DNA from: a virus
Virus record (IMG/VR): IMGVR_UViG_3300017786_000089
Coordinates: 1-29,265 of that record
Reading direction: 5' to 3' (one strand)
Length of the DNA: 29,265 bases
Below, in pieces: positions 4,831-29,265 of the stretch. Both the position numbers and the translations under genes were made by a program. Below the pieces are notes generated by a model that saw only the letters and a program-made list of their open reading frames with translations, searched no databases and was not told the DNA's origin. Numbering within the stretch: the stretch's first letter is position 1; the number at the start of each line of letters is the position of its first letter.

Positions 4831-5001
4831 ATGGCACACATGGATATGATGTCATACTATAAACTTAATTTTTCCTTGATGCAGTACCATAAATATTCAT
4901 TAACTGAGATTGAAAATTTGATCCCTTGGGAGAGGGAAGTTTATACCATTTTACTTGAGCAACACCTTAAAGAAGAAGAGGAAAAGGCAAAGAGAAAGTA
5001 A
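4831..5001 (+). CDS. 51: Small gp51-like hub assembly protein
   Basis: This 56-residue frame reads MAHMDMMSYYKLNFSLMQYH and then YSLTEIENLIPWEREVYTILL, closing with a charged helix, LKEEEEKAKRK. The position directly after gp26 and before the tail-interior genes matches T4 gene 51, the hub assembly catalyst (249 residues in T4). The protein here is far shorter, so the label rests on position and on the assembly-chaperone-like pattern of a helical acidic tail. The segment LTEIENLIPWEREVYTILL resembles the second half of tail assembly chaperone pairs. It begins two bases after the gp26 stop with no clear ribosome site of its own, and it is in the -1 frame of gp26. Its stop overlaps the next start (TAATG). 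Confidence 0.6.
   Translation: MAHMDMMSYYKLNFSLMQYHKYSLTEIENLIPWEREVYTILLEQHLKEEEEKAKRK
4888..4895 (+). promoter_or_regulatory. Possible internal late promoter box
   Basis: CATAAATA fits NATAAATA and lies about 105 bases upstream of the next large gene, inside the gp51-like frame. It may boost transcription of the tail-interior genes. Short AT-rich matches occur by chance, so this is weak. Confidence 0.3.
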
Positions 5002-7373
5002 TGGCAACTACCCAAACTAACGTAAACAAGGAAGTTAATCAGGGTATCTTGCGCGATTATCTTGGCATTAGTGATGGAAGTGATATTGATTTTGGTACAT
5101 ATAAAACACTAATTCAAGAAAAGATTACTGCTGCTAGAGTAAGTAGCAGTAAGGTGGATAGTGGTGACATAGCAATTCTTACAAAGGAATTTGTTAGAAT
5201 AAAGAAGATAAAAATACCAGGTAGTCAAGAAAAATCCAAGATTGACGCAAAGAAATTTTTTAAAGAGCAAGAGAAAGCAGCAAAGAAAGTTGCAGAAAAA
5301 TCTAACAAAGCTGCTGAAAAAATATCAAAACAGAAATTTATAGGCACTGCCACAAATCAAAAATCTGAAAAAAAAGAGAAAGCAAAACCACAACTTTTAC
5401 TTCCTGGTGGTGCAGAACCACAACAAGAAAGTGTTAGTAATGATGAAGTAAAGAAGGGTATTGATGATGTATCACTCAAACTTTCTGGACTTAAGGACAA
5501 CCTGCAAAGTATCTTAGATACTCTAAAGAAGCAAGCAAAACTTGAACTGAAAGAAGATAGAGAAGAAAATGCTCAAGCTCAAAAGAGTAAGAGAGTAGAT
5601 AAAGAAAAATTATTAGAGAGTAAAGGTAAATCTACAGGGGATGATAAGAATTTAGCTAAGAAGGCAGTGAAACCTGCAAAGGGAATTTTTGATATGTTGA
5701 TGGATTTCTTTAAAAATATCTTACTTGGAGGAGCACTTTTATTCTTATTAAAAGTATTAAAAGATCCAAAGAAATTTTTACAACCTTTGATTGATGTTTT
5801 TAATAATGTTTTAAAATTCTTTAATGGTATTATAGGAGGAATCAATGGTTTCATAGATGGATTTAACAAATTTGTACTAAGTCCAATTAATGATTTTGTT
5901 CTTAAACCAATTCATTCATCTTTGAATTTTATTGAAGATAGAATTAATGATGTTCTAGGTCTTTTTGGTGCTGATCCTCTTGAAAATATATCAGAACAAC
6001 CTCCAATATTGGAAATTCCTAAGATACCTGAGATTCCAATGTATGATCCTTTTAATGTAAGACCTGAAAATCAAAAAGCACCACCTGTTCAAACATTTTC
6101 TGGTGGTGGTAAGATAACAAATAATAGTATTAATATTACAGGTGCAGGTGCTGATACTCAATTGATTGCTGCTCAACCTGGTGAGATTGTAATGAGTAGA
6201 GGTGCTGTTAATAAGTATGGTGCAAGTAATCTATTAGCAATGAATGCTGCTGGTGGTGGTAGTAATGTTCCCAAAAATAATAACAATATTCAGGGATTTA
6301 GTGGTGGTGGATTGGTTGGTGGTACAGCAGGTGCCAACTCTCCTGATAGAGCAGGTGGAAAAGCAAAGAATACAAAAGTTTTCTTACACTGGACTGGAGG
6401 AGATCATAATAGTAATGTTGGACCATATCACCAAGTTTTTAGTGGTAGTGGCAAACCATTTAGAAATGCATCATATGGTGTTGATAATAGAGATGGAACT
6501 GGTGGATATAATGGAAACTCAATTGCTCTGGCAGCAGCTGCTATGGGTCATGGACCACCAAGAAAACCTTACAGTGATAGTAGAGGGTGGAAAGAAAATC
6601 CACTAACAAACGCTCAGACCACTGCTATGGCTAAAGAAGCAGCAGGTTTATTAAAAGCATATGGTCAGACTGCTGCTGATGTAGATAAGAATGTGATGAC
6701 TCATGGAGAAATTGAAAGATTTGGAGTTAAGAGTGGAAAGTTAGGTGGTGGTGTTCAAAGATGGGATTTAGATTCTCTATCACCTGGATCATATAATCAT
6801 CCAGGTGGGTTTTTCTCTACTAGACAAGTTAAATCAACTGGTGGCAACCAGATGAGGTCTAAGATTAAGAGTTTCATGGCAGGAGGTAACGGATCATCAG
6901 TATTCACTAGACCAAAGGGAGTTAGTTCTACAAACTTTACTTTACTTACTGCTATGGGTAAAGATTCAAGGCAAAAAATCCTAATGAGTAAAGTGGGTGA
7001 TAAAGTTGATGGAGTAACAGTCACAGAGAGTTTGAGAAGTGAGACAAATACATACAATCTTGCAAAATCTGACTTTGATAAGATGACTTTAGCAGCTACA
7101 TCTAGTGTCAAAGACCCTGCTGAAACTGCTGGCACATCTGCACCTGCCAATATTACATCTTCTCCAACAAGACAAGCACCAGGTCCTAGAGTAGTTGATA
7201 ATAGTATTTTTATGGGTCCAAATCAGGGAGATGGTACAGTGCCTAGAGGTGCCACACCTACATCACTTGCTGGTAATGCTAATGGAACTGAAGGAGTTCC
7301 TTCTTTTTCATCACAAGATTCAATGAATACTGAGACTCTTATTATTAAATCAATCTATAGTTTGGTAGGATAA
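5001..7373 (+). CDS. Tail-interior (tape-measure-like) protein with peptidoglycan amidase domain
   Basis: This 790-residue protein has, in order: a Lys/Ala/Glu-rich coiled-coil N-terminus (about 1-230); a hydrophobic motif NILLGGALLFLLKVLKDP (about 239-256) followed by amphipathic segments to about 320; a stretch AAQPGEIVMSRGAVNKYGAS (about 390-410) typical of the C-terminal part of tape-measure proteins; and a domain from about 458 to 595 with the layout of type-2 N-acetylmuramoyl-L-alanine amidases. That domain shows LHWTGGDH with His463, NGNSIALAAAAMG, PLTNAQTTAMA, MTHGEIERFG with His568, and WDLDSLSPG. His463 and His568 are likely zinc ligands. Such an enzyme cuts the bond between muramic acid and the stem peptide. 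Here it would act locally at the tail tip during infection. The last residues (YSLVG) and the anchor motif are shared in style with the next gene. Start overlaps the gp51-like stop. Confidence 0.75.
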   Translation: MATTQTNVNKEVNQGILRDYLGISDGSDIDFGTYKTLIQEKITAARVSSSKVDSGDIAILTKEFVRIKKIKIPGSQEKSKIDAKKFFKEQEKAAKKVAEKSNKAAEKISKQKFIGTATNQKSEKKEKAKPQLLLPGGAEPQQESVSNDEVKKGIDDVSLKLSGLKDNLQSILDTLKKQAKLELKEDREENAQAQKSKRVDKEKLLESKGKSTGDDKNLAKKAVKPAKGIFDMLMDFFKNILLGGALLFLLKVLKDPKKFLQPLIDVFNNVLKFFNGIIGGINGFIDGFNKFVLSPINDFVLKPIHSSLNFIEDRINDVLGLFGADPLENISEQPPILEIPKIPEIPMYDPFNVRPENQKAPPVQTFSGGGKITNNSINITGAGADTQLIAAQPGEIVMSRGAVNKYGASNLLAMNAAGGGSNVPKNNNNIQGFSGGGLVGGTAGANSPDRAGGKAKNTKVFLHWTGGDHNSNVGPYHQVFSGSGKPFRNASYGVDNRDGTGGYNGNSIALAAAAMGHGPPRKPYSDSRGWKENPLTNAQTTAMAKEAAGLLKAYGQTAADVDKNVMTHGEIERFGVKSGKLGGGVQRWDLDSLSPGSYNHPGGFFSTRQVKSTGGNQMRSKIKSFMAGGNGSSVFTRPKGVSSTNFTLLTAMGKDSRQKILMSKVGDKVDGVTVTESLRSETNTYNLAKSDFDKMTLAATSSVKDPAETAGTSAPANITSSPTRQAPGPRVVDNSIFMGPNQGDGTVPRGATPTSLAGNANGTEGVPSFSSQDSMNTETLIIKSIYSLVG

Positions 7374-7374
7374 T

Positions 7375-10188
7375 ATGGCTGTTTTTCTACTTCCTCTTGC
7401 TAAAGGTTTATTGAGTGCTGGTGCAAAGGCAGGCGCTAAAAAAGCGCTTATGAATAAAGCAAAAAGTGTTGCTAGTAATAAAGCAAAGAAATTTTTAAAA
7501 AATAAAAAAAGTAATAAAAAAACTAGAAGCACAAGTTCTGAAAAATCAACAACAAGTAAAGGTGGTGCTCTAGTAAAAGCAATGAATGGTGGTGGTGTCA
7601 CTGCTATGAGAAAATCATCATCTGTGAAAGTTAAGAATCCAAATTTAAGTGCAAAGGGGTCTAAAATTGGTTTTCAAAAAATCAATATTCAACTTGATAA
7701 TATCAATAAGTTAACAGGTTCTATTGATGATGCTCTCAAAGGACAATATCAGAAAGAAGTTCAGGAGAGAAAAAGCAGAAGAGAAGCAGCAGCAAAATTA
7801 AGAAAGTCAAGAAGAGAACAACTTCTTGAGGGTGGTAAGAAAGCAGCAGGTGTTGCTTCTGGTGTTGTTTCTGGAGTTGGTGGAGCATTTGATTTTATGG
7901 GATTCATCACCAACATATTACTTGGTGGTCTTCTCCTTTTTCTTGTAAAGAGTTTCAAAAAAATAATTAGTGCATTTAATTTTGTAAGAGATAATCTTTA
8001 CTTAGTATTTGCTTCTTTAAGAGCAATACTGCAAGCATTCAGATTAGCAGGTAGTGGACTTAAAGCCTTTGTTAGAGGTGCCATCAAGGCACCACTTAAA
8101 ATTATAAAGGCAGGGTTTAAGGGATTTTTTAGATTATTCTCATCAATATTAAGGAAAGGTGGTTCTCTAATTGGTGCAGGATTAAGAGGACTTGGCAATG
8201 CTTTATTTGATTTTGGTGCAGCAGCGATTAAAAGAATAAAAGATTTAGCAGTTGTAGCAGGGAGAGGTTTAGTTCGTGGTGCTAAAGCTGCTAGAGATTT
8301 AGCAAACTTTTTAAGAAAAACAGCACCTCTAACAAAACTCAGGTCAGCAGCTGGTAAATTATTTCAAAAAGCACTAGCAACACCAGCAGCACGTCTTGCT
8401 AGTAAAATATCATATACAAGATTAGGTAACAAAGCAGCTGAATTGATTTTTGATGCAAGACTTGGAATAAGGTCTGCTAAAAAAGCATTAGCACCAGTGT
8501 TATCAACAGGTAAAGATCTCCTCAAAGCTGGTGCTGCTGGAGGAAGAAAATTAATAACTGAAGGAGGAGAGTTATTAGTAAGGGGTGCAGATAAGGGAAG
8601 ACGTGCAGCAAGTGCTTTAAAAGGTAAAGTAAGTCCATTCCTTAAAAAACTCTTGGGTAGTAAGGGAGCACAAGAAGTAGCAGGTGCAGCACCATTTCTC
8701 AAAAGATTAAAAGGTCCATTAAGTAAAATCAAGATTCCAATCATTGGACCACTCCTTGTACTTGGTATAAATTTACTTGATCCTGATGTAGGTGTAGAGG
8801 AGTCAATCTTCAAAGCATTAGGAACAGCAGTTGGTGAGATTATTGGCACATTAGTTCCTATACCAATTCTTGGTACATTGATTGGTGGTCTTCTTGGTGA
8901 GTATGGAGGTTCTCTTCTCTATACATTGATTAGAGGTGGTGGTATTGGACCATTTCAAAAAAGAATAAGTGAAGACTTTAAAAAACTAATTGATGTAGGT
9001 AAACAGGGGTGGGAATTTATAAGTGGTGGAACAAAAAGATTGATTGATAATTTTCCAGAGATAAAAGTTCCTAAAAAACTTGGTCTACAGACAACACTTG
9101 GTTTAATGTTTCCATTAGTTGGTCCTCTTCAAGGAAAAAGACTTGGTGCAAGGATAGAAACCCTTCCTGATCTTGGTGCATTTTTTAATATGGATAAGAT
9201 GGGGTCATTAATGAAAGGTTCATTCTTCCCTGATAAATTTGATATGCCAAAATTTAAAAGTGCAGAACCCAATTTAGATGATTTAACTGAAGAAGAGCAG
9301 GCAATGATAGATACTATGCCCACAAAAACCAGCACACCTACAACACCTTTGGTGGGTGAGGTTAAAGATCCAAAAGAGACTGATGGACAATCTGCTCCAA
9401 AAGCAACTCCAACAACTGGAACTGGATTAAAAGATGTTGTTCCTACTGCTAACCTTATGGCAAGGGGTGTTGGCACTGGTGATGTTGGTATGACTAGTGG
9501 AAGAGGAATGAGGATGAGTCCCACACTGGGAAGAATGAAACATCACGCTGGTGTTGACATTGGCACTAATGGTGAGAAAGGATATTTTGTAGCCTTTAAA
9601 TTGAAAGGAAAGGTAAGTCTTATATCTAACTTGTCTGGATATGGAGAAACTGTTATAATTGAGGCAGGTGGATATGATTTCTTATTTGCTCATCTTGCTA
9701 GAAGATCAACTCTTACACAGGGTCAACCTTATAACGGTGAAATCATTGGTGAGATTGGTAACACTGGAGTTGGAACAGGTGAGCACCTTCATTTTGAAGT
9801 TAGATCAGTTGGTGGTGGCAGTGGAACTGATGTAGATCCAATGCCTTTTGTAAAACATCTTGTAATTGGTAGAATGGGAGATGGTTCTGCAGTTGGAACG
9901 CAAACAGCACCCTCAACAACATTCTCGCAGGTTACTGAATCTGTAATAAGACCTGCTTCACCAGGGTCTTCAGCACCTGCTGCATCTAGAAACTTAGAAC
10001 AATACCCCTCATATGATGATGCTCAAAGAAATATCATTGTGATGGGTCAAGGTGGCAGAAGAGGTGGTGGAGGGTCATTACCAAGTAGAGGTGGTGGTAC
10101 TACAATGAGAACAGGTGCTTCTACAACTGACATGTTAAATAGTTATTATAAACAACAACTCTTAGGGTTACTGTATAAAGTAGGATAA
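7375..10188 (+). CDS. Tail-interior protein with M23 peptidase domain
   Basis: This 937-residue protein has a very basic N-terminus (about 1-60) and a Gly/Ser-rich linker. A coiled stretch of RRE/KSRR repeats leads to a hydrophobic motif TNILLGGLLLFLVKSFKK (about 179-196) that closely resembles the one in the gene before it. A long basic amphipathic region (200-440) follows, then a hydrophobic Gly-rich segment (about 450-520) with PIPILGTLIGGLLGEYGG. Near the C-terminus lies an M23 (lysostaphin-type) metallopeptidase domain with HHAGVDIG (His724, Asp728), FAHLARR, and GNTGVGTGEHLHFEVR (His804, His806). All expected zinc ligands are visible. Such enzymes cut peptide cross-links of peptidoglycan. 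The ribosome site AGGAT lies within the end of the previous gene. It could be the tape measure itself, because residue count and hydrophobic segments fit. Confidence 0.75.
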   Translation: MAVFLLPLAKGLLSAGAKAGAKKALMNKAKSVASNKAKKFLKNKKSNKKTRSTSSEKSTTSKGGALVKAMNGGGVTAMRKSSSVKVKNPNLSAKGSKIGFQKINIQLDNINKLTGSIDDALKGQYQKEVQERKSRREAAAKLRKSRREQLLEGGKKAAGVASGVVSGVGGAFDFMGFITNILLGGLLLFLVKSFKKIISAFNFVRDNLYLVFASLRAILQAFRLAGSGLKAFVRGAIKAPLKIIKAGFKGFFRLFSSILRKGGSLIGAGLRGLGNALFDFGAAAIKRIKDLAVVAGRGLVRGAKAARDLANFLRKTAPLTKLRSAAGKLFQKALATPAARLASKISYTRLGNKAAELIFDARLGIRSAKKALAPVLSTGKDLLKAGAAGGRKLITEGGELLVRGADKGRRAASALKGKVSPFLKKLLGSKGAQEVAGAAPFLKRLKGPLSKIKIPIIGPLLVLGINLLDPDVGVEESIFKALGTAVGEIIGTLVPIPILGTLIGGLLGEYGGSLLYTLIRGGGIGPFQKRISEDFKKLIDVGKQGWEFISGGTKRLIDNFPEIKVPKKLGLQTTLGLMFPLVGPLQGKRLGARIETLPDLGAFFNMDKMGSLMKGSFFPDKFDMPKFKSAEPNLDDLTEEEQAMIDTMPTKTSTPTTPLVGEVKDPKETDGQSAPKATPTTGTGLKDVVPTANLMARGVGTGDVGMTSGRGMRMSPTLGRMKHHAGVDIGTNGEKGYFVAFKLKGKVSLISNLSGYGETVIIEAGGYDFLFAHLARRSTLTQGQPYNGEIIGEIGNTGVGTGEHLHFEVRSVGGGSGTDVDPMPFVKHLVIGRMGDGSAVGTQTAPSTTFSQVTESVIRPASPGSSAPAASRNLEQYPSYDDAQRNIIVMGQGGRRGGGGSLPSRGGGTTMRTGASTTDMLNSYYKQQLLGLLYKVG

Positions 10189-16394: not shown

Positions 16395-17090
16395 ATGTCA
16401 GACGCAGGTAATTTTCATGTTGGTGGATTATTAGAGGTTGGTGAGGGTAAAGCAACACAATTTGGTCGTCCAGGAATTCCAAATACTTCTGTAAGAGGTA
16501 GTGCATACCTTGAGGGTCCTTGCATTATTGGTGACCCCTCTCAATTTGCTAAACCAGTATTTGAGAGAGGAAGTTTGATGGCAGGACAAACTGCTAACCC
16601 AGATACTGCAGACAGTCCTACATTTCTAGGTGTTCCATTCTATTCATTCTTTGCCTCTACATTTGCTAGGATTAAAGGTTTTTTAAAGGTTGATACTCTT
16701 CTGTGTGTGAAGGTTATTAAATCAAAAGTGATTTATGCAGAAGTTATTATGGCAAAGGTAAAAAACTTTTCTATCCCACATCCAACCTTACCTAACACAA
16801 ATCTTGTTTATGCATGTCTTGAAGGACCAGAAAATGCAGTGTATGTGAGAGGAGTGTTGAGAAATAAAGATACTATATATTTACCAGAGGTTTGGAAGGA
16901 TATAGTTTCTCCAAATTCCATCACAGTATCTCTTACATCAGTTGGTATTGACCAGGGTTTGATGGTTAAGAGAGTTGCAAATAATCAGGTTGTTGTGCAA
17001 GCAAAACCTGGTCTTCCCATTCACTGTCACTACCATATCTTTGCTGAAAGAAATGATGTTGAGAAATTACAAACTGAGGTAGCATTATGA
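16395..17090 (+). CDS. Fibre or adhesin-like structural protein with EGPE module (paralogue 1)
   Basis: This 231-residue protein has an N-terminal half that is Gly-rich and fibre-like (NFHVGGLLEVGEG), and a repeated KVI.. beta stretch around residue 100 (LCVKVIKSKVIYAEVIMAKV). The C-terminal module, about residues 120-225, reads KNFSIPHPTLPNTNLVYACL, EGPENAVYVRGVL, IYLPEVWKDIV, and SITVSLTSVG. The same module is in the following gene. IPHP...EGPE...YxRG...LP.yW modules are found at the ends of phage fibres and related proteins, often after trimeric helices, and are thought to help folding or attachment. That reading is from pattern memory, not a search. A strong ribosome site (AGGAGG, five bases before ATG) suggests high expression. 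The stop overlaps the next start (ATGA). Confidence 0.6.
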   Translation: MSDAGNFHVGGLLEVGEGKATQFGRPGIPNTSVRGSAYLEGPCIIGDPSQFAKPVFERGSLMAGQTANPDTADSPTFLGVPFYSFFASTFARIKGFLKVDTLLCVKVIKSKVIYAEVIMAKVKNFSIPHPTLPNTNLVYACLEGPENAVYVRGVLRNKDTIYLPEVWKDIVSPNSITVSLTSVGIDQGLMVKRVANNQVVVQAKPGLPIHCHYHIFAERNDVEKLQTEVAL

Positions 17091-17983
17091 GTGTTTGGCA
17101 AAATCTTTTTCCTGGAAATCCAGAAGGTGGTGTAGAGGGTTCTCTGCCATTTAGATTTGAAAACTTTGGAACTTTTGCTGGTCCACAGTTTAGTTCTACA
17201 AACTTTGACTATGAAAAACTTAGTATAGAGGGGGAATGGCCAAATTCAGTTCCTGGTGATTCATATACATTCACTAATACAGACCTAGGTGCATATCTGT
17301 ATAATAATAGGACAAATTATGTTGGATTTCATTGTGATGGGGTATCAACAGCACAGATGTACTTGCAACATTCTGCTGGTCCTATTCCAATCTTCACTGT
17401 TAAAGCAGATGTAACAAATGTTTTAGGCAATACCCTTAATACTACAGGTAACATTCATGCTGCTGGTAATATTACTGCTAATGGTAACTTTATCTTCAAT
17501 GGGCCAATGCAACTCACTGGACTTGGCGATGTTGCAACTAAAGTTCTAGCAGTAGAGGTAATTGCCAATAGTAAAAAGTCTTTTGATATCCCTCACCCCA
17601 ATAAGGAAGGATATAGATTAAGGCATGTTTGTGTGGAGGGTCCAGAGGATGGTCCAATCTATACTAGAGGTAAATTGGAAGGTAATCTTTTAAAACTCCC
17701 TGATTACTGGGATGGTCTAGTTGATAAAGAAAGCATCAGTGTTCATCTTACTCCAATTGGTTCTTTTCAAGAACTCTTTGTTGAAAAGATTGAGTGGGGT
17801 AAGAATGTTTATATTAAGAATGCAAGTGGTGGTCCAGTAAAATGTTACTACCAAGTATGGGCTGCTAGACAATATGAGGAAAAACTTCATGTTGAATATG
17901 AAGGTGAGACACCTGCTGATTATCCAGGAGATAACTCACACTTCTCAATTGCTGGATACGATTATGATAGGAGAGTAAACTAA
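17087..17983 (+). CDS. Fibre or adhesin-like structural protein with EGPE module (paralogue 2)
   Basis: This 298-residue protein has an N-terminal half with beta segments (PFRFENFGTFAGPQFSSTNF), a short fibre stretch with repeated Gly/Asn turns (GNTLNTTGNIHAAGNITANG, about 116-135), and then the same module as the gene before: KKSFDIPHPNKEGYRLRHVC, VEGPEDGPIYTRGKL, LPDYWDGLVDKES, ISVHLTPIG (about 163-225). A further 70-residue tail ends GYDYDRRVN. The two proteins are clearly related in the C-terminal module but not in the N-terminal half, so they probably occupy different positions with a common distal end. Start and stop overlap neighbours (ATGA and TAATG). The function is inferred as a baseplate-attached fibre or collar-like part. 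Confidence 0.6.
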   Translation: MSVWQNLFPGNPEGGVEGSLPFRFENFGTFAGPQFSSTNFDYEKLSIEGEWPNSVPGDSYTFTNTDLGAYLYNNRTNYVGFHCDGVSTAQMYLQHSAGPIPIFTVKADVTNVLGNTLNTTGNIHAAGNITANGNFIFNGPMQLTGLGDVATKVLAVEVIANSKKSFDIPHPNKEGYRLRHVCVEGPEDGPIYTRGKLEGNLLKLPDYWDGLVDKESISVHLTPIGSFQELFVEKIEWGKNVYIKNASGGPVKCYYQVWAARQYEEKLHVEYEGETPADYPGDNSHFSIAGYDYDRRVN

Positions 17984-19556: not shown

Positions 19557-19630
19557 GCCCGTGTGACCCAGCGGAATGAGGTTCTCGACTTAAAATCGAG
19601 CAGTCGTGGGTTCGAATCCCACCACGGGTA
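19557..19630 (+). tRNA. tRNA-Leu(UAA)
   Basis: A full cloverleaf is visible. The acceptor arms are GCCCGTG and CACGGGT, with a G-U first pair as in E. coli tRNA-Leu(UAA), and A73 as discriminator. TG is at positions 8-9. A three-pair D stem (ACC/GGT) carries GG in the loop. The anticodon stem CTCGA/TCGAG encloses loop CTTAAAA, giving anticodon UAA (19591-19593), which reads UUA. The variable arm is only five bases (CAGTC), and the T arm is GTGGG-TTCGAAT-CCCAC. CCA is not encoded. Leucine tRNAs normally have a long variable arm, so charging by the host enzyme is uncertain. UUA is a common codon in this AT-rich genome, so the tRNA may supplement the host. Confidence 0.85.
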
Positions 19631-20212: not shown

Positions 20213-23200
20213 ATGCCACTAGCACGTCTTGATAATTTCCTGAAAAATGTTCGTGGAAATATCCTTTATGTAAGTCCTAATGATCTTGATTCCACTGATT
20301 CCATTGAGAACCAGGGTAATTCAATGGCAAGACCCTTTAAAACAATTCAAAGGGCACTTGTTGAAGCAGCAAGATTTTCATATCAGAAGGGATTAGATAA
20401 CGATAGATTTGGTAAAACAACTATCATGATGATGCCTGGTGATCATCTGATTGATAATAGACCAGGATACATTCCACTTACAGGAACTAATTACCTACAA
20501 AGAAGTGGTACTGAGGTATCTGATTTTAATGCATTTGATGCTAATACAAACTTTGATATTGAATCACCAACAAACGCATTATTTAAACTAAACAGTGTGC
20601 ATGGTGGTGTCATCATACCCAGAGGTACGTCTTTAGTTGGTTATGATTTAAGAAAAACAAAGATTAGACCATTATATGTACCTGACCCCACCAATTCAAA
20701 TATTGAAAGAACTGCTATATTCAGAGTAACTGGTGGATGTTATTTCTGGCAGATGACCTTCTTTGATGGTCAACCTAATGGACTTGTTTATAAGAACTAT
20801 ACAGATTCACAATTTGTTCCAAACTTCTCACACCATAAAGTAACTTGTTTTGAGTATGCTGATGGTGTTAATAATGTATATCTCAATGATGCTTTCAATG
20901 TAAATAAACAGTTTAATAGAACTGACCTTGACATGTATTATGAGAAGGTTGGTTTGGCATATGGACCTGCCTCTGGTAGAACCATTGAACCTGACTTCCC
21001 AGCATCTGGTCTTGACATTCAAGCAAAAATTGATGAATTTAGAATTGTTGGACCAAAAGGTGGTGCTGTAGGTATCTCAACAATTAAGGCAGGAGATGGC
21101 ACAACAGGAACCAAGACAATTACTGTCAATCTTGGTGTAGGCGCAGGTAATGTTCAAGGCATTGATGGTCTGCAAGTTGACACAATGTTCCAGGTGAATG
21201 ATTGTGCTGATTCTGCATACAATGGACAATTTGTAGTAGATACTATCTCTAAAGTAGATTCAGTAACAGGAAGAGTCCTTGAATTTACATATCAAGTCCC
21301 AACAATTCCTACTGATGCACTTGAGAATCCAGCATCTGCAACTATTACTCTAGATACTGATACTGTTAAGTCAGCATCACCATATATCTTTAACATCTCA
21401 ATGAGATCTGTTTATGGTATGTGTGGAATGCACGCTGATGGTAGTAAGGCAGGTGGATTTAAATCAATGGTTGTTGCCCAGTTTACTGGTGTATCACTTC
21501 AAAAAGATGACCAAGCATTCATTAAGTATAAGAATGATGGGACATTTGAGAGAGGAACATCCAACCTACACAGTGATGGAGATGCTAGATATCATCCTGA
21601 TTACTATAGTTATCATATCAAAGCATCAAATAATTCAGTTATTCAAATTGTATCTGTATTTGCCATTGGTTATGCACAACAATTCCTTACAGAGTCAGGT
21701 GGTGACTTCTCAGTTACCAACTCAAACTCAAACTTTGGAGAAATTGCTCTAAACTCAGTAAGTTATAGAGAGGAAGCATTCCCTCAGGATGATGTTGGAT
21801 ATATCACTCACATTATTCCTCCACAAGAGATTACATCAGATAATTTTAACCTTGAGTATGATGCAATTGATGTAACAAAAACACTTTCTGTTGCTGCTGG
21901 TGCTGCAACCACAAGTAAGTTATTCCTTGCAGAAAAAACTAATGTTGATGATGCTCCAAATACTCTTGTTCAGGGACATAGAATTGGTGCATCTGTAAAT
22001 GATACAATTAATGTAGGTATCTCATCAGACATTACTGGCACAAAGGAATATTCTGCCAGAATTGTGATGCCTAACAGCACATCTATTTCTAAGAAAGAAT
22101 TTTCTGTAGGAAGAGTAGGAACTGCAAATAGCATTACAAGTGATATTATCACACTTACTGAAAATCATTCCTTTATTAATGGTGAAACAATTAGATTTAT
22201 TTCAGATGATGCTAGATTGCCTGATGGTCTTGAGAATAATCAAGTTTACTTTGCTATCACAGATAGTTTAAATGCTGATCAAATTAAAGTTGCATCAACA
22301 TTCACTGAAGCATCTGCTGGTCAACAAATTCCTATTAATAATCTTGGTGGTTCACTTAAGGTACAAAGTAGAGTCAGTGATAAAATTGTTGGTGATTTGG
22401 GTCACCCAATTCAATTTGATTCTACAAATGGTCAATGGTTTATCAATGTATCAACTGATTTATCTTTGAACAACATTTACCATGCTATAAAAGGCATTGG
22501 ATCTGGAATTGTTGGTGATGCTACATCAAGGTCATTCATCACAAGAAAATCTGATACCAGACCTCTTGGAGATAAAATTTATAAGTTTAGGTATGTTCTA
22601 CCTTCTGGTGCTGGTATTTCATCTGCAAGACAACCACTCACTTCTTATGTTGTTGAAGAGTCAAACACTGTTATTGGTTCTACAAATGCTGAAGTAGCAT
22701 TGCAGTTTAGTCCATCTTCTCAGACAATGAGCAATCAGTCTGAGATGAGAAACTTTAGATTCATTAAGAGTGCTGCAACTGATGGTACATTTAACTACTT
22801 CAACAGTGAATTGCCTCATGGTTTAACACTTGGTTCTGAAGTAAGAATTAATCAAGTAACCAGTTCTACAAACCCAACTGGTGTTGCTAATTCTGGATAT
22901 AACCAGAAATATACAGTTGTTTCTGTTCCAAAATCTGACCAATTTGTTGTTCAGATGGGTGTTGTAAATCCTGGAACATTTACTAATAACACGTCACAGA
23001 GAAATACAAGTCTTCCAAACTTTAATAGAGTTAAAGCACCAAACAACTACTTCATCTATGATGTAGATACTATTAATGAATATAAAACTGGTATTCAAGA
23101 TGGTGTCTATTATCTAACTATTGTTGATGCTACAAATACTCCTCAAATAGCACCATATAATGACAGGAATAAATTTGCATTTGCACAACCAATCAAGGAT

Positions 23201-26101
23201 TTGTTCCCACAATATGATAGAGACAATCCTAATTCAAACCCAGATGCTGCAATTGCATACGCATCATCAAGAGTTCTTGGTAATGTAGAAATTGATGACC
23301 CTAAGCATTCTCTTACTAGATTTGTTGCTTCACAAGGTCAAGTAGACCTGGCAGTTGGTTTTGGTATTACTGATATTGTATCCAACTCTGCTGGAACTGC
23401 TCACACTATCTTTACTAAGACAGAGCATGGTCTGAATAGAATCACAAATGTAAGTATTGTTGGTGCTGGAGGGTCAGGTTATGGAAATAATACTGGTGGT
23501 GTAGAAAGTCTTTACAATGCCACACTCACAGGTGGAAATGGCATAGATGCTAGTGCAAGAATTACTGTAGATTCTATTGGTTCAGTTACTGGTATTGAGA
23601 TAATGAATCCAGGAACAGATTACCTGGTTGGTGATGTATTGACAGTTACTGGTGTAACAACATTCAGTCCTTACAGTCCTGCAACTGTTACAGTTGGAAA
23701 TATCTTAAACAATGTTGGAAACACAATTAGAATTGAGAATATCTCTTCTTTCAAGAGAAAAGAATATAATAAATTATATGAAATTACTGGAATTTCTACA
23801 AACAAAGAAATTCAAGTCACATCAATTGGTGGAACAATTACAGACCCATCATTTACTGGAATTGGTGCTACTGTAACCAATCTGTCCTTTGGAACTTTGA
23901 CAGGCATTGGATTGACAGTAGACAATACTAAATTTGTATATGATAAATCTTCTGGTATTGCCACTGTAACCACACTTGAAAATCATGGTTTCAGAGCAAG
24001 TAATCAAATCACATTAGATGGTTCTGCTGCTACATTGTATAATGGTGATTTCATTGTTAAGCAGATTGTTGGTCTAACTACATTTACTGTAAATATTGGT
24101 AAGAGTAGTTCAGTTCCATCAATTAGTGGCACTGTTAGAGCATATACTCCTGGTTTAATTCCTCAACCTGGTATTATTAATCTGTTTGATGAAAACTTTG
24201 GTGGAAGAGTTCTCAATGTCTATGATAATCTAACAGCACAATTATCATCTCCTGTATCTACTTTAGTTACTGATGAAATCAATATCACTAATCTGAATAA
24301 CTTTGACTTTAAGATTGGTGATTATATGAGAATTGATGATGAGATTGTAAGAATTAAAACTAATGTTACCTCTAATCCAGTTAAGGTATTCAGAGGATTG
24401 ATGGGCACTAAAACTGCAACTCATGTCTCAGGATCTGTTGTCAGAAGGGTTCTTGTAGAACCAATTGAACTTAGAAGACCATCTATCATTAGAGCATCTG
24501 GTCATACATTTGAATATCTTGGATTTGGTCCAGGTAATTACTCAACTGCATTACCTGAGAAGCAATCTAGACAACCTTCTACTAAGGAGCAACTTGCTAC
24601 ACAATCATTCAATAGTGCAGGTGGCATCACTGTATTCACTGGAATGAATGACAGAGGTGACTTCTTTGTTGGTAATAAGAAGATTTCCTCCAACACTGGT
24701 AAGGAAGAGGTGTTTGACACTCCAATTCCAACCATTACGGGTGAAGATATCTTCTCTGTTGGCACAGATACTGGTATTGATATTATTAACCCTGCTGAGA
24801 TTACGATCTCTAGAACACTTAAAGTTGAGGGTGGTAACACTGGCAATCTACTTTCACAGTTTGATGGTCCTGTACTATTCAACAAGAAGATTACTTCTAC
24901 CTCACCTGAGGGTATTGAAGCAAACCACATATTCATTCAGGGTGATGCAACAGTTTCAAGAAAGTATTCAGTTGGAATTGCTACCCCCACAAATTCTGCT
25001 ACAGCAGGTGATGTTGTATGGAAAGCACAACCTGAAGAAGGTTCAAATTCTGGTTGGGTATATACCACAGATAATGAGTGGTATCCATTTGGTAGTATTA
25101 GCATAGACAAAGATAATCAAATCTATATCTTTGATGATGTTGGCGTTGGTACAACTTCTCCAGGAACTAATACATTCCAAGTTGGTTCAGGTACATCATT
25201 AGTTGCCATTGATGGTAATGGTGGTGTTGGTATTGGAACCACTGCCAATGGATATGATATTAGAACTAATGGTGATGGTATCTTTGTTGGTTCAGGTGGC
25301 ACTTACTTTGGTGATGGTTCAGGAATTTATAATCTATCAAATGATAGTCTTTTCCAAGGTGTTAACTCTGGATTTGGCACTGGTATCCATCCAGTTCAAA
25401 ACTTTAATGTAGGAATTGGAACCACAGTATTTGATCAAACACACACCTTACAACTTGGTTCTCCTGGTACAGGTAAGACAGATCTTCTGGTTAATAATCT
25501 ATCCAGATTTAAATCTACTGCAGATTTTGAAGGTTCTGTAAACATTGTTGGAAGATTAACATCATCAGACTTTGATCTTGACTCATCTTCACACAATATT
25601 ACTGTTGGTGTCCTTACTGCAACTAATATCAATGTTGGATCTGGTTCTACTATATTAACTACAACAACTTCTGGAGTTGGTATTAATGCTACTACTCCTA
25701 CTGCTGCTCTTGATGTTAGAGAACCAGCTAGATTACAAAGCACCTATGAGATTCCAGAAACTGTAACAAGTTCTTCTAATGCAATTACATTACAAGTTGA
25801 TCAGTCAAATACATTCTTACATACCACCACTGAAAATGTAAGTAAATTTGTACTCTCTGGTGTTAAAGCAAGTAGTTCAGCATCATTTACAATTAAAATT
25901 GTTCAAGGTGCCACAACAGCAAGAACAGTTGCAGTTGATACCTTTGAAACCACTGGAGGAGTTTCAATACCAGTGAATTGGCCTGGAGGGGTTGTGCCCA
26001 CTATGACCAATGCTGTAAATGCAATTGATGTATATTCTTACATCACATTTGATGGTGGTGCCTCACTCTATGGTGTTGTTGGAGGTCAGAACTTCTCATG
26101 A
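20213..26101 (+). CDS. Very large fibre-like virion structural protein
   Basis: This 1962-residue protein opens PLARLDNFLKNVRGNILYVS, then NSMARPFKTIQRALVEAARF (about 37-56). The RPFKTIQRAL phrase is typical of the first turn of right-handed beta-helix (pectate-lyase-like) phage proteins. TTIMMMPGDHL and HGGVIIPRGTSLVGYDLRKT follow, in keeping with that fold up to about residue 530. The middle is a long series of beta segments with GHPIQFDSTNGQW and similar, and a GGSGYGNN...GTDYLVGDVL module (about 1085-1145) like those in gp5. The last third has fibre-type phrases, VGVGTTSPGTNTFQVGSG and GGVGIGTTANGYDIRTNGDG (about 1642-1690), and a closing beta domain. No transmembrane part or enzyme motif was seen beyond the helix-type start. 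It is probably a long, trimeric host-contact or neck/baseplate fibre. The stop overlaps the next start (ATGA). Confidence 0.7.
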   Translation: MPLARLDNFLKNVRGNILYVSPNDLDSTDSIENQGNSMARPFKTIQRALVEAARFSYQKGLDNDRFGKTTIMMMPGDHLIDNRPGYIPLTGTNYLQRSGTEVSDFNAFDANTNFDIESPTNALFKLNSVHGGVIIPRGTSLVGYDLRKTKIRPLYVPDPTNSNIERTAIFRVTGGCYFWQMTFFDGQPNGLVYKNYTDSQFVPNFSHHKVTCFEYADGVNNVYLNDAFNVNKQFNRTDLDMYYEKVGLAYGPASGRTIEPDFPASGLDIQAKIDEFRIVGPKGGAVGISTIKAGDGTTGTKTITVNLGVGAGNVQGIDGLQVDTMFQVNDCADSAYNGQFVVDTISKVDSVTGRVLEFTYQVPTIPTDALENPASATITLDTDTVKSASPYIFNISMRSVYGMCGMHADGSKAGGFKSMVVAQFTGVSLQKDDQAFIKYKNDGTFERGTSNLHSDGDARYHPDYYSYHIKASNNSVIQIVSVFAIGYAQQFLTESGGDFSVTNSNSNFGEIALNSVSYREEAFPQDDVGYITHIIPPQEITSDNFNLEYDAIDVTKTLSVAAGAATTSKLFLAEKTNVDDAPNTLVQGHRIGASVNDTINVGISSDITGTKEYSARIVMPNSTSISKKEFSVGRVGTANSITSDIITLTENHSFINGETIRFISDDARLPDGLENNQVYFAITDSLNADQIKVASTFTEASAGQQIPINNLGGSLKVQSRVSDKIVGDLGHPIQFDSTNGQWFINVSTDLSLNNIYHAIKGIGSGIVGDATSRSFITRKSDTRPLGDKIYKFRYVLPSGAGISSARQPLTSYVVEESNTVIGSTNAEVALQFSPSSQTMSNQSEMRNFRFIKSAATDGTFNYFNSELPHGLTLGSEVRINQVTSSTNPTGVANSGYNQKYTVVSVPKSDQFVVQMGVVNPGTFTNNTSQRNTSLPNFNRVKAPNNYFIYDVDTINEYKTGIQDGVYYLTIVDATNTPQIAPYNDRNKFAFAQPIKDLFPQYDRDNPNSNPDAAIAYASSRVLGNVEIDDPKHSLTRFVASQGQVDLAVGFGITDIVSNSAGTAHTIFTKTEHGLNRITNVSIVGAGGSGYGNNTGGVESLYNATLTGGNGIDASARITVDSIGSVTGIEIMNPGTDYLVGDVLTVTGVTTFSPYSPATVTVGNILNNVGNTIRIENISSFKRKEYNKLYEITGISTNKEIQVTSIGGTITDPSFTGIGATVTNLSFGTLTGIGLTVDNTKFVYDKSSGIATVTTLENHGFRASNQITLDGSAATLYNGDFIVKQIVGLTTFTVNIGKSSSVPSISGTVRAYTPGLIPQPGIINLFDENFGGRVLNVYDNLTAQLSSPVSTLVTDEINITNLNNFDFKIGDYMRIDDEIVRIKTNVTSNPVKVFRGLMGTKTATHVSGSVVRRVLVEPIELRRPSIIRASGHTFEYLGFGPGNYSTALPEKQSRQPSTKEQLATQSFNSAGGITVFTGMNDRGDFFVGNKKISSNTGKEEVFDTPIPTITGEDIFSVGTDTGIDIINPAEITISRTLKVEGGNTGNLLSQFDGPVLFNKKITSTSPEGIEANHIFIQGDATVSRKYSVGIATPTNSATAGDVVWKAQPEEGSNSGWVYTTDNEWYPFGSISIDKDNQIYIFDDVGVGTTSPGTNTFQVGSGTSLVAIDGNGGVGIGTTANGYDIRTNGDGIFVGSGGTYFGDGSGIYNLSNDSLFQGVNSGFGTGIHPVQNFNVGIGTTVFDQTHTLQLGSPGTGKTDLLVNNLSRFKSTADFEGSVNIVGRLTSSDFDLDSSSHNITVGVLTATNINVGSGSTILTTTTSGVGINATTPTAALDVREPARLQSTYEIPETVTSSSNAITLQVDQSNTFLHTTTENVSKFVLSGVKASSSASFTIKIVQGATTARTVAVDTFETTGGVSIPVNWPGGVVPTMTNAVNAIDVYSYITFDGGASLYGVVGGQNFS

Positions 26102-28191
26102 GACAGAGTGTACCTTTCAGTAGAACAATTCAAACACCGTTGGATCTTAATGGTCCAACTGTTGGTATGCAGAGTCAACCAGTTGGAACTTCCTGTAGTG
26201 TAGCATCAGGAATAGCAACATTTATAGGTATTGGCACTGCTATATTTCCAGCTGGTCAAACAGCAAGAAACACCAATTCAGGTACTATTACACATCAATG
26301 GCACCAAGTAGGTGTTGGTGCTTTAACTGATGGTACAAATATTACTGGGTCAGGAACTACAACTTTGACCCTATCTGGTTTAACTAGTCCAACTGATAAT
26401 CAGAATGAATATTTCTGTAAGATAGGATATGATCCAAGTGATTTATCTCCTAATGCAATCAATGAACCATTTGACTCTTCATCAGCAAAAGTCACAGTTT
26501 CTCCTGTAATTAGTATAACAACACAACCTGAAAATGTTACAATTGAACAAGGTAATCTAGCTACATTTAGTGTAGTTGCAACTAATTCAGACCCTCTTTT
26601 TGCAACTGATGAGCAGACCAGACCTGCACCTTTGCAATATCAATGGGTCATGGATGGCGAAGATTTACAAGATGGTACATCTTTATTACTTGATCGAGGA
26701 GAAACTGTAGTTTCTGGCGCTAAATCGCCTACATTGTCTATTAATCAAACATATCCTGATTTTAAAAAAATATTTTGTAAAGTATCACACTTCTTTGCAA
26801 ATCCAGGAATAGTAACAACAAATCAAGTAAATTTAGATATAACATCTCCTAGATTTCTTCTTGCTTATCAAAGATTTGGTGATGGAACAACTTCTCTTGC
26901 TGATAGTGGACAAAGAGAATTAAAATCATTAGGTGCATTATCATTTAGAGCTGATACTGATCCTGATAATAGAATTGTAGTAGTACATGCTCCTGAAAGT
27001 GATATTGATGTAAAAATTACAATGGGTGGAGCAGCAGGTGAAGATTTTGGGTCATCAGAAGGAGGAGAGGGTGGAATTTCTGTATTTAAAGTATCATTAA
27101 AAAAGGGTGATGAATATCTTATAAAATTAGGAGTTAATCCTGGACAAGGTGGTGCTCCTAGAGGAGGTAATAGAAGTTCTAGAGCAGGTGGAGGTGGTGG
27201 TCTTGCTGCCATTTATCACAAAGGAAAATTGATTGCAGTATGTGGTGGTGGAGGTGGTGCTGGTAGTAGCAATAATGGTGGAGATGGTGGAGGACTTCAA
27301 GTAGAGGGTGAGGATGGATTTGGTGGTGGTAATGTAGGGAGAGGTGGAGATACATTTACACAAGGATTACTTCCTACACAGGGTATGACACAAGCAGGAA
27401 GAACTGGACCAGATGATTTTGACAGTAACTCAACTGGTGGAGGTAGAATAGGAGGATGCACAGTTGGTAGTACTTGGTGGAGAAATGAAGGATTTTCACC
27501 TTGTCAAGATGTTCCTGGAGCTACTCGTTTTAGAAATTCTGATGGAAGTCTTAATACTGCAACAGCATTATTGTCTAGAGGTTTTAAATCTGGACAGGGT
27601 TATATAAACAATGGTGGTGCTGGAGGAGGTACTGGTTGTGGAGCAGGTGGTGCTGGAGCTAATGGAGGTAGTGGAGCATTAAGTGTTGGTAGAGGTGGTG
27701 GAGGTGCATCAGGTTATGCTAGTGATGAAGTAGAACTTCTTTCTAGTTCTGTTTTATCATCAGGAACAAGATTAGGTGGTAATGATGGTGTAGCTTTTAT
27801 TTCTTTTGAGGCATGGGAAGGTATTTCTTTTGCAAATCCTGACCCATATGTTCCTAATATTCCACCAAAAGTTTTTGGGGATATTTTTATAGTTGAAAGA
27901 TTTAGTGTAACTAGAGATAATTCTGATACTAATACAGTTACTTTTACCTTGCAAAGTGGAACTGGTCCAAACACTATTAGATTTGGACCTAATGGTGGTA
28001 CAGTAACAGCACAAATAGGAAAAGGTGCTGTTTATCAACTAACAAGCTCTACAAATAGTGGTCCTGGTAGTTTAGCATTTAGACTTAATGGACGCACTCT
28101 TGAGTTAGATGAAAGGTTTGGAATCTCAGGTATCTTGGGAATTACTCCAACTAATGGAACATTTACAAGCACCGTAAGATTAGTTTATTAA
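26098..28191 (+). CDS. Ig-like plus glycine-rich adhesin-type protein
   Basis: This 697-residue protein has two Ig-like domains. One, about 20-135, has HQWHQVG and EYFCKIGYDPS. The other, about 138-255, begins SITTQPENVTIEQGNLATFS and has YQWVMDGEDLQDG and KIFCKVSHFF. Each shows the usual Trp then Cys pattern. After a beta linker comes a glycine-rich region (about 307-545) with many GGGGG and GGxGG runs and a few cysteines (GGCTVGSTWW, GCGAGGAG). This resembles polyglycine-II-type sandwiches of T-even and S16-like gp38 adhesins and glycine-rich animal receptor domains. A C-terminal beta domain follows (to 697) with FIVERFSVTRDNSDTNTVTF. Domains and position, coupled to a giant fibre gene, suggest a receptor-binding tip or fibre adhesin. 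The fold assignment of the glycine region is an inference from pattern only. Confidence 0.65.
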   Translation: MRQSVPFSRTIQTPLDLNGPTVGMQSQPVGTSCSVASGIATFIGIGTAIFPAGQTARNTNSGTITHQWHQVGVGALTDGTNITGSGTTTLTLSGLTSPTDNQNEYFCKIGYDPSDLSPNAINEPFDSSSAKVTVSPVISITTQPENVTIEQGNLATFSVVATNSDPLFATDEQTRPAPLQYQWVMDGEDLQDGTSLLLDRGETVVSGAKSPTLSINQTYPDFKKIFCKVSHFFANPGIVTTNQVNLDITSPRFLLAYQRFGDGTTSLADSGQRELKSLGALSFRADTDPDNRIVVVHAPESDIDVKITMGGAAGEDFGSSEGGEGGISVFKVSLKKGDEYLIKLGVNPGQGGAPRGGNRSSRAGGGGGLAAIYHKGKLIAVCGGGGGAGSSNNGGDGGGLQVEGEDGFGGGNVGRGGDTFTQGLLPTQGMTQAGRTGPDDFDSNSTGGGRIGGCTVGSTWWRNEGFSPCQDVPGATRFRNSDGSLNTATALLSRGFKSGQGYINNGGAGGGTGCGAGGAGANGGSGALSVGRGGGGASGYASDEVELLSSSVLSSGTRLGGNDGVAFISFEAWEGISFANPDPYVPNIPPKVFGDIFIVERFSVTRDNSDTNTVTFTLQSGTGPNTIRFGPNGGTVTAQIGKGAVYQLTSSTNSGPGSLAFRLNGRTLELDERFGISGILGITPTNGTFTSTVRLVY

Positions 28192-28242: not shown

Positions 28243-29265
28243 ATGGCTGTAAATAAGAATTTTGTAGTCAAAAATGGTATAGAGGTTGGCACAAGGTTAA
28301 TTGTTGCTGATGCTCAGAATACCCATGTAGGTCTGGGGACAACTGCTCCCTTGACAACTCTTGACGTCAGAGGCGATGTAAGATTTGCTGATGATGGAGG
28401 GACCACTGCCAATACAGTGGATATTGCTGGTATCACTACCTTCAGGAAAGATGTTAACATTGGAGTGGGTGCTACCACTGTTAAGGTTGATGTCAATAAT
28501 GGTTATGTTGGTATCAATTCTGCCTCACCAAGTTTTTCTCTTGATGTAAAAGCAGGTGCTGGTGACACACTAGCAGCATCATTTGATAATGATATATTTG
28601 CTCCCAATTTAATTGTATCTGGGGGTTCAATTAATTATATTGTTGCTATTGCTGCAACTATTGGCACTTTAGGTGTCACTGGTGTTGCAACAGCAAACCA
28701 ATTAGCAGTTTCAGGTTTAACAACACTTGCTCAAAATGGTGGTATTACAACCACTGGTGGAGACCTTTATGTTGGTGGTGACTTATTTGTTAAAGATGAT
28801 GTAGTATATGATGAGGTAACTGGTAGAAATATCAATATCTCTGGTATTGGTACAATTGGTACACTTGGTGTTACTGGTATTGCTACAGCAAGTGGACTGA
28901 ATGTCTTTGGTAATTCTAATGTAACAGGTGTTACTACACTTGCATCTTCAGGTGGTATTACAACCACTGGTGGAGACCTTTATGTTGGTGGTGATTTATT
29001 TGTTGCTGATGACATTGTTTATGATGAGGTCACTGGTAGAAACATTAACATCTCTGGTGTTGGCACCATTAATGGTGTTAAGATTGGTGATCCATCTGGA
29101 ATTGTAACAGCAAGTAGTGCCACTGGAATTGTCACTTATTTTGGTGATGGTTCCAACTTAACAGGACTTGCTCCTAGTCTTATTGCTGCAGTTGGTGTTT
29201 CTTCTGGTGGAACTCTCATTGGTGCTGGTGCAACAATGATTGACTTTGCTGCTGCAAATGCCACC
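28243..29265 (+). CDS. Tail-fibre-like protein, 3' end outside window
   Basis: The frame is open from ATG to the window edge, 341 codons. It begins MAVNKNFVVKNGIEVGTRLI, then VGLGTTAPLTTLDVRGDV and VGINSASPSFSLDV. These are the classic N-terminal phrases of phage fibre proteins with repeating beta-strand and glycine turns. Two repeats of about 40 residues (GGITTTGGDLYVGGDLFV followed by YDEVTGRNINISG) lie at about residues 167-207 and 238-278. The period is 71 residues. The next visible stretch, SATGIVTYFGDGSNLTGLA, is also typical of fibre repeats. It probably encodes another host-contact fibre; the receptor-binding end is beyond the window. Confidence 0.75.
   Translation, partial: MAVNKNFVVKNGIEVGTRLIVADAQNTHVGLGTTAPLTTLDVRGDVRFADDGGTTANTVDIAGITTFRKDVNIGVGATTVKVDVNNGYVGINSASPSFSLDVKAGAGDTLAASFDNDIFAPNLIVSGGSINYIVAIAATIGTLGVTGVATANQLAVSGLTTLAQNGGITTTGGDLYVGGDLFVKDDVVYDEVTGRNINISGIGTIGTLGVTGIATASGLNVFGNSNVTGVTTLASSGGITTTGGDLYVGGDLFVADDIVYDEVTGRNINISGVGTINGVKIGDPSGIVTASSATGIVTYFGDGSNLTGLAPSLIAAVGVSSGGTLIGAGATMIDFAAANAT
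28741..29073 (+). repeat. Direct in-frame repeat of about 120 bases in the fibre gene (period 213)
   Basis: Bases 28741-28860 recur at 28954-29073. The first 40 bases are identical and the rest differs mainly by synonymous or conservative changes. Both copies encode the phrase GGDLYVGGDLFV and then DEVTGRNINISG. Tandem duplication of a fibre module is the simplest source. Confidence 0.85.

Follow-up and report, generated by a model that had tools for sequence, protein, structure and literature searches.

The window analysed here, the whole stretch of 29,265 nucleotides (positions 1 to 29,265 of IMG/VR record IMGVR_UViG_3300017786_000089), carries an open reading frame whose product is called the adhesin below, after the role proposed for it. 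The original prediction had described this ORF as Ig-like domains joined to a glycine-rich region and encoded next to a giant fibre gene; translation, Pfam, the structural model and composition confirmed the first part, and a tail fibre gene indeed lies immediately upstream, overlapping the adhesin gene by four bases. The following gene (starting at 28243) is a member of baseplate-wedge-associated families, and the adhesin gene sits in a baseplate/tail block, not among capsid genes. A promoter and terminator scan of the adhesin gene gave no result above chance. The features of the locus are as follows.

20213..26101, + strand: giant tail fibre gene, proposed partner of the adhesin (1962 aa; phrog_529 tail fiber, E value 0)
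25724..26098, + strand: fibre C-terminal domain, proposed docking socket (last 125 aa, ending in YGVVGGQNFS)
26081..26085, + strand: GGAGG, possible ribosome-binding site of the adhesin, within the last fibre codons
26098..28191, + strand: adhesin gene (697 aa ORF; ATGA overlap with the fibre stop)
26140..26157, + strand: LDLNGP motif, residues 15-20, proposed docking peptide at the end of the low-confidence N-terminal tail
26149..26508, + strand: Ig-like domain 1, residues 18-137 (model; VIA-align to tandem Ig domains)
26509..26850, + strand: Ig-like domain 2, residues 138-251 (model; VIA-align), fast-diverging
26851..27849, + strand: TG domain, a TNF-like beta-sandwich with a glycine-rich lattice, residues ~252-584 (AlphaFold2; ALK/LTK match)
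27244..27765, + strand: glycine-rich stretch between the TNF-like strands, residues about 383-556, predicted polyglycine-II-type lattice
27457..27504, + strand: conserved cysteine loop, residues 454-469 (CTVGSTWWRNEGFSPC), with C454 and C469 invariant in alignment A2
27850..28188, + strand: optional C-terminal beta-sandwich, residues 585-697 (model)

Domain architecture and protein family

The AlphaFold2 model of the whole 697-aa protein (pLDDT 86) places two Ig-like domains first, then the TG (TNF-like plus glycine-rich) domain and finally the C-terminal beta-sandwich; the TG domain modelled separately reached a pLDDT of 89 and a pTM of 0.90. The model starts with Ig-like strands, and helices of at least four residues are absent before residue 275. 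In the N-terminal tail the pLDDT was below 50 at residues 1-10 and 12-17, and L17, N18, G19 and P20 were invariant among the 40 aligned family members. Modelled residues ~18-251 matched the tandem Ig domains of MuSK and Robo (Z ~13). By sequence, Pfam Ig_3 was found in the N-terminal piece at residues 139-223 with an E value of 0.0028, under the Pfam cut-off, and at E <= 0.1 in 26 of the 40 members. The Ig domains also match Ig-like phage tail proteins (PDB 9ncf and 9c2d; E 1.4e-14 by profile), which are strings of Ig domains, and the match stops short of the glycine-rich domain of the adhesin. In some relatives extra glycine domains are inserted in Ig-like domain 2 (alignment A1). The columns of the C-terminal beta-sandwich were filled in about 8-11 of the 40 members, and this domain gave a sub-threshold match to Invasin_D3 (22.7 bits against a cut-off of 33). 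The NCBIfam search of the adhesin gave no consistent match.

Alignment A2, to which these counts refer, consists of the studied adhesin and 39 relatives hand-picked from 86 loci (L004-L089); the selection dropped duplicate sequences, the majority of proteins bearing large inserts and several that were incomplete, and in several sequences the C-terminal end was trimmed or stops where the match ends. Alignment A3 holds 37 of the same 40 sequences. All 40 members match phrog_24848 (1208 bits for Bellamy gp28), a family with the gene order found at the adhesin locus and with no assigned function; one is proposed here. A pattern scan of genome contigs gave 591 pattern matches and no adhesin relative, and no paper on this family was found in the literature searched.

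Regarding variation, mean identity over 35 pairs was lowest in Ig2 (0.66), followed by Ig1 (0.71), the glycine part (0.73), the TNF-like stem (0.75) and the fibre (0.79), while comparison with the nearest relative gave 95% identity in the glycine part and 73% in Ig2. Variation between phages with different hosts had been suggested as a check. The comparisons give no clear support for hypervariability at the glycine tip: the glycine part diverges more slowly than both Ig2 and the C-terminal domain.

The glycine-rich domain and its nearest folds

Glycine accounts for 54 of the 173 residues at 384-556 in the glycine-rich stretch (31%), and the richest 60-residue segment contains 26 glycines; in 1000 shuffled versions of the protein this count averaged 17.1 and never exceeded 24. 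Because the adhesin lacks any series of at least five consecutive G-X-Y triplets, this region is not collagen-like, and with a pLDDT mostly above 90 it is not predicted to be disordered. Neither of the two states that the original prediction had named as contrary evidence is thus predicted. The stretch is almost without DSSP strands and is flanked in the model by strands at residues 293-382 and 557-572. It aligns structurally with the glycine region of ALK. Structure prediction, proposed as a check for packed polyglycine-II helices, yielded an ordered glycine lattice; the polyglycine-II state itself is suggested by analogy with ALK.

In a Foldseek search of the PDB with the TG domain, all 21 matches at E <= 0.001 were ALK or LTK. 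Using VIA-align, the ligand-binding TG domains of the human receptors ALK and LTK gave Z scores of 14.7-16.4 with an rmsd of 2.6-3.7 A over about 200 residues (215 residues for the top score of 16.4), followed by worm ALK (12.5) and by the phage tail proteins Pam3 gp24 (7.6 and 7.1) and Bxb1 tail tip (6.8); the rows below Bxb1 had a Z of 3.0 or lower. As modelled, the glycine-rich lattice is inserted between the strands of the TNF-like beta-sandwich, which is the arrangement of an ALK/LTK-type TG fold (PDB 9g5i, 7nx0 and 7lrz; PF12810). The phage protein differs from ALK/LTK in having no kinase, in joining its TG domain to Ig domains, in carrying a conserved C-x14-C loop and in a sequence under Pfam detection, with an identity of about 21% that is inflated by glycine. 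Its own glycine domain had no match to PF12810 ALK_LTK_GRD (cut-off 24.5 bits), a profile passed by the extra glycine domains of the relative at L004 (56.8 bits) and of phage Bellamy (59.1 bits). Similarly, PF21722 Gly_rich_2 (cut-off 24.3 bits) had no match in the adhesin and was passed by the relative at L083 (73 bits). Neither whole-protein phmmer nor the profile searches retrieved ALK chains from the PDB by sequence, and tblastn of the glycine domain against phage records found nothing.

The original prediction also pointed to unusual cysteine pairs in the glycine region. The TG domain has four cysteines (382, 454, 469 and 514); since only 454 and 469 are invariant among the 40 aligned members, these pairs reduce to a single conserved one. 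Cys 514 was present, in the alignment checked, only in the studied adhesin and its nearest relative. Of 60 distinct full-length proteins, 55 have a C..G...C loop together with RGxKxG, and 3 others have a longer cysteine loop, read by eye.

T2/S16-type gp38 adhesins are glycine-rich tip proteins of the distal fibre. The adhesin resembles them in being separately encoded directly downstream of a fibre gene and differs from them in its Ig domains and TNF-like sandwich and in having no N-terminal helices or beta-helix attachment. S16 gp38 itself has a beta-helix and short N-terminal helices (PMC9608196), and PMC12892980 places the separately encoded, glycine-rich gp38 of T2 and S16 at the tip of the distal fibre. 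S16 gp38 (PDB 6F45) is absent among the matches listed, and this absence is no evidence against a shared polyglycine-II fold. The resemblance to gp38-type adhesins initially proposed is thus retained only as an analogy, in the separate gene after the fibre gene and the proposed adhesin role, and the nearest solved folds are instead the ALK/LTK TG domains; gp38 would be a functional analogue and not the nearest fold.

Among phage proteins, a TNF-like plus glycine-rich receptor-binding part is found, as in the adhesin, in Pam3 gp24 (PDB 7yfw and 7ypx), a receptor-binding tip (PMC9608196), and in Klebsiella phage TFP_Y, in which changes to the glycine-rich domain altered host infection (PMC12671077). 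The Pam3 match is weaker than that to ALK. In addition, Pam3 gp24 attaches to the baseplate unaided and has a helical, trimeric stem at its N-terminus (PMC9608196); the phage studied here instead has two Ig domains in the adhesin itself and a giant fibre as a distinct protein.

Pairing with one type of fibre C-terminus

The fibre C-terminal domain alone was used as query in a tip-first search, independent of the adhesin sequence, which kept 80 of 135 relatives. An adhesin-first search kept 80 of 126 relatives. A member of the adhesin family directly followed the fibre stop in 77 of the 77 tip-first loci with downstream sequence, and a fibre-type ORF lay directly upstream (-4 to +17 bases) in 80 of 80 ORF rows of the adhesin-first search, counts that are not of independent events because they include contigs common to both searches and near-duplicates. 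The strict start motif was fitted by 74 of the 77 tip-first loci, and these 74 hold 63 distinct downstream proteins; L100, L129 and L141 show FDLNGP, KQLNGP and VELNGP, respectively. Among the 86 loci the start motif was located in 80 ORFs, missing L014, L036, L037, L043, L078 and L089, the first four of which carry a variant motif (L014, L036 and L037 were used in A2).

The fibre N-terminus was found in 460 phage records and the adhesin in nine, the same nine accessions that have the adhesin-type fibre C-terminus. Four adhesin-less fibres were sampled: those of P-SSM2, S-SSM7 and S-CAM9 end in a Peptidase_S74 self-chaperone, and that of S-B43 has neither an adhesin nor an S74 end, so a two-way split between adhesin and S74 is incomplete. 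In four other phages the adhesin-type fibre C-terminus is immediately followed by another large or glycine-rich protein; the glycine-rich protein of Mel-JY34 had no PDB sequence match.

Strict pairing with one fibre C-terminus would also suit an assembly chaperone, like T4 gp38 and Pam3 gp25, that is released once it has folded the giant fibre. Such genes typically come after the fibre gene, and T4 gp38 is a chaperone not retained in the virion (PMC9608196). This explanation is nevertheless unlikely, as the protein is large and multi-domain with a ligand-binding-type fold, no match to a tail fibre assembly family was detected, and the extra glycine domains of some relatives suit an exposed adhesin better. 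We likewise give a low probability, close to that of a chaperone and somewhat below it, to a separate receptor-binding fibre or spike attached to the baseplate or to another part of the tail and not at the giant fibre tip: the next gene indicates that the neighbours include other tail parts, and Ig domains occur in many tail proteins, but it is the kind of C-terminus on the fibre, and not the locus alone, that the presence of the adhesin tracks. A Hoc-type capsid decoration protein bound through its Ig domains is highly improbable, given that the 6 of 40 members matching a Hoc-like PHROG at E <= 0.01 do so by Ig-level similarity only, that 20 of 40 match a tail-protein PHROG, and that the gene overlaps the fibre gene and tracks its C-terminus within a baseplate/tail block; a capsid role, named at the outset as contrary evidence, was set aside on this location.

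Proposed role of the adhesin

By computation, the protein has two Ig-like domains, an ALK/LTK-type TG domain and an obligate pairing with one fibre C-terminal domain. We consider it quite probable that this protein is encoded separately and caps the giant tail fibre in a marine, T4-like cyanophage. The idea of a receptor-binding adhesin by the giant fibre is well supported, both by the strict pairing and by a fold in common with phage receptor-binding tips, and we infer its docking and receptor binding. Its synthesis would be translationally coupled to that of the fibre, and its conserved N-terminal tail (LDLNGP) and Ig1 would dock onto the fibre C-terminal domain. For Ig2, and for extra domains where these are inserted, a role as spacer or accessory binding module is proposed. 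The glycine domain is the candidate host-gripping part: its rigid polyglycine lattice may display loops for binding a molecule on the host surface, and the C454-C469 pair would brace one of these loops. Phages lacking the adhesin have fibres with a different C-terminus, an S74 chaperone domain in three of the four sampled.

Coliphages are split between T2, with a gp38 adhesin, and T4, with a gp37 tip, and the occurrence of adhesin-bearing and S74-ended fibres recalls this division. A wider reading, which we advance tentatively and as a whole incline to doubt, is that the fibre C-terminal domain is a general socket in unrelated phages (those of Roseobacter and of Microcystis as well as T4-like cyanophages) into which varied, separately encoded adhesins are plugged (the Ig-Ig-TG protein, a plain glycine-rich protein or one with DUF7483), and that phage TG domains and the ligand-binding domain of animal ALK/LTK have a common ancestry. 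If this were true, host range would change through exchange of the plug gene or through the gain of extra ALK-like glycine domains within the Ig domains of the plug.

The ALK-like fold suggests an explanation for the misleading name 'receptor protein-tyrosine kinase' on some phage proteins. A related lead, that cyanophage virion 'protein kinases' are misnamed glycine-domain proteins, is unsupported in PMC10665884, where the kinase is APH/ChoK-like.

Little is known of the protein by which marine T4-like cyanophages recognise their hosts, and the adhesin family, so far annotated only as 'hypothetical protein' or unknown PHROG, is a concrete candidate with a fibre partner. Beyond Pam3, it adds a larger and closer match to the phage examples of the ALK-type glycine domain, and isolates such as P-TIM68, S-SM2 and Bellamy allow direct tests of its docking, binding and host range.

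Tail locus and domain organization of the adhesin

Judged by PHROG matches, the adhesin gene of the window, a linear 29,265-base virus record, sits among the tail genes of a T4-like phage. The gene order is baseplate wedge, tail tube cap, tail tube, baseplate hub, hub with tail lysozyme, giant fibre and adhesin, directly followed by a gene with baseplate-wedge-family matches. The protein and DNA matches of the window were to Synechococcus and Prochlorococcus phages, plus viruses of marine single cells, which makes a marine picocyanobacterium the likely host. Elsewhere, two adjoining genes (16395-17090 and 17087-17983) look like tandem duplicates, since both match PHROGs 17490 and 28536, and a 937-residue tail protein (7375-10188) has a metallo-endopeptidase/endolysin-type match at about residues 706-841. 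A tRNA-Leu with anticodon TAA (19557-19630) lies immediately upstream of the fibre gene, and tRNAs occupy the corresponding place in S-SM2 and SynMITS9220M01 too.

Features of the fibre-adhesin locus and predicted domains of the adhesin
20213-26101 (+): giant tail fibre gene, 1962 residues
26098-28191 (+): adhesin gene, 697 residues
Residues about 18-251: two Ig-like domains (Ig1 and Ig2), Z about 13 against the Ig pairs of MuSK and Robo
Residues 252-584: TG domain (TNF-like beta-sandwich plus glycine-rich lattice), predicted as a single domain in which strands flank a long glycine-rich stretch
About 110 residues after 584: C-terminal beta-sandwich, in roughly a quarter of aligned members

The AlphaFold2 model of the adhesin, built on 40 aligned sequences (the window and 39 hand-chosen relatives), had a pLDDT of 86. 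The original prediction of Ig-like domains and a glycine-rich region in one protein beside a giant fibre gene was right, as the ORF was confirmed and both parts are present in the model. The structure prediction proposed at that time for the glycine region gave an ordered domain with high confidence (residues 252-590 modelled alone, pLDDT 89, pTM 0.90). DSSP strands were almost absent from the glycine-rich stretch, yet its model confidence was high. Residues 1-17 had low confidence, though they lead into LDLNGP, the family's most conserved motif, in which L17, N18, G19 and P20 are invariant in the 40 members.

In 55 of 60 distinct full-length adhesin-family proteins, RGxKxG comes no more than 60 residues after a C..G...C loop. 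Three more have a longer cysteine loop, and the exceptions are SynMITS9220M01 and the short ORF of locus L060. Ephrin_rec_like proteins have CxxG...C loops of a similar kind, and one of the 40 members matched that family weakly. Extra glycine-rich regions lie upstream in 14 of the 60 proteins; in the alignment they fall inside Ig1 for L004 and inside Ig2 for S-SM2 and AG-345-O18. A poly-proline run was present in 7 of 67 distinct proteins. In phage SynMITS9220M01 the adhesin gene (L007, 9968-13402) closes with long stretches of poly-proline and poly-arginine and has an unrelated C-terminus; a terminal glycine domain that bears the cysteine motif is encoded by a separate later gene. Three other loci (L132, L157 and L174) resemble it in N-terminus and length and likewise lack the motif. 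In L060 (6503-7219) the ORF ends at 238 residues and tblastn similarity runs on to the end; this short ORF represents a frameshift or assembly error.

Pairing of the adhesin with the fibre end

Gene coupling was established from both sides, in two overlapping sets of relatives that include near-duplicates. Starting from the adhesin, a fibre-type ORF (a few cut by the contig end) lay upstream in 80 of 80 ORF rows, ending between 4 bases inside and 17 bases before the adhesin. Starting from the last 125 residues of the fibre, 80 of 135 relatives were taken, three of which end before any downstream gene is visible. In all 77 scored loci the next gene opens with an LNGP-type motif or close variant, and it starts between 46 bases inside and 26 bases after the fibre stop. 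The strict motif had a background of 6 in 253 ORFs, five of these six being adhesins.

Co-occurrence was likewise established. Within the limits of tblastn sensitivity, on which these record sets hinge, 460 phage records had the fibre N-terminus, and the nine with the window-type fibre C-terminus were the same nine with the adhesin; these represent six viruses, three of them each as two records. Four cyanophages that lack the adhesin were examined: Peptidase_S74 forms the fibre end in P-SSM2, S-SSM7 and S-CAM9 and is absent from that of S-B43. The fibre C-terminal domain was also found in a small sample of four phages outside the group (L095-L098), where it is directly followed by a DUF7483 protein in Roseobacter phages CRP-9, CRP-13 and CRP-603 and by a 288-residue glycine-rich protein in Microcystis phage Mel-JY34.

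Fold and variation of the glycine domain

All 21 Foldseek matches to solved structures at E <= 0.001 were ALK or LTK ligand-binding domains. In VIA-align, the glycine domain matched human ALK and LTK (Z 14.7-16.4), worm ALK (12.5), the Pam3 cyanophage fibre (7.6 and 7.1) and the Bxb1 tail-tip protein (6.8), every further match having a Z of 3.0 or less. Searches of the window's domain with the Pfam models PF12810 and PF21722 gave no sequence match. Among six extra glycine domains tested in relatives, those of L004 and phage Bellamy exceeded the ALK_LTK_GRD cut-off, that of L083 exceeded the Gly_rich_2 cut-off and the other three were below the Pfam cut-offs. The TG-type fold is not new in phages, because a published account already likens Pam3 gp24 to worm ALK and S16 gp38 (PMC9608196). 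The present analysis adds the Ig-Ig-TG architecture and its pairing with the fibre. Several phage proteins among the viral predicted structures with the glycine-rich fold bear the name 'receptor protein-tyrosine kinase', one of them from cyanophage S-RIM12; this is probably a naming artefact that stems from the shared glycine domain, not from a kinase.

The adhesin diverges faster than the fibre, as expected for a host-contact protein. Compared with its nearest relative, the window had an identity of 97.5% in the fibre, 98% in Ig1, 95% in the TG domain, 82% in the C-terminal domain and 73% in Ig2. Mean identities over 35 pairs were 0.79 (fibre), 0.75 (TNF-like stem), 0.73 (glycine part), 0.71 (Ig1) and 0.66 (Ig2), and that of the C-terminal domain over six pairs was 0.50. 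Over the 35 pairs the glycine part is thus not a variation hot spot, so that Ig2 and the C-terminal domain may also be involved in binding or, alternatively, the glycine loops may vary at few positions only (in the closest pair, around residues 428-439 and 459-473). Within the C-terminal domain, a 26-base stretch (in the region 28118-28158, + strand) agrees at 25 of 26 positions with the opposite strand of ORF 5001-7373 (6002-6039, - strand); of 60 random 26-mers taken from the adhesin gene, none exceeded 20. The nearest relative has there a longer stretch with a DNDYNDL motif, and the swap is in frame; the match may reflect templated exchange or be an artefact of assembly.

A proposed two-part fibre tip

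The proposal of an adhesin is well supported by the predicted fold, the gene coupling and the co-occurrence with the fibre C-terminus. In T2, gp38 is a receptor-binding adhesin. The gp38-type label given in the original prediction holds for role, while the nearest fold is that of ALK/LTK (Z 14.7-16.4). The closest analogy to the fibre-adhesin pair is T2 gp38 on gp37 (PMC12892980). A binding role for the TG fold is supported from other phages: infection by Klebsiella phage with the protein TFP_Y was altered by two changes in its glycine-rich domain (PMC12671077). We infer the docking site, the stoichiometry and the receptor binding. On the best reading, the tip would be made of two parts, a socket domain at the fibre end and a separately encoded adhesin. 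The N-terminal tail and Ig1 of the adhesin may serve to dock it on the fibre, and loops of the rigid TG domain would then be displayed to a host molecule.
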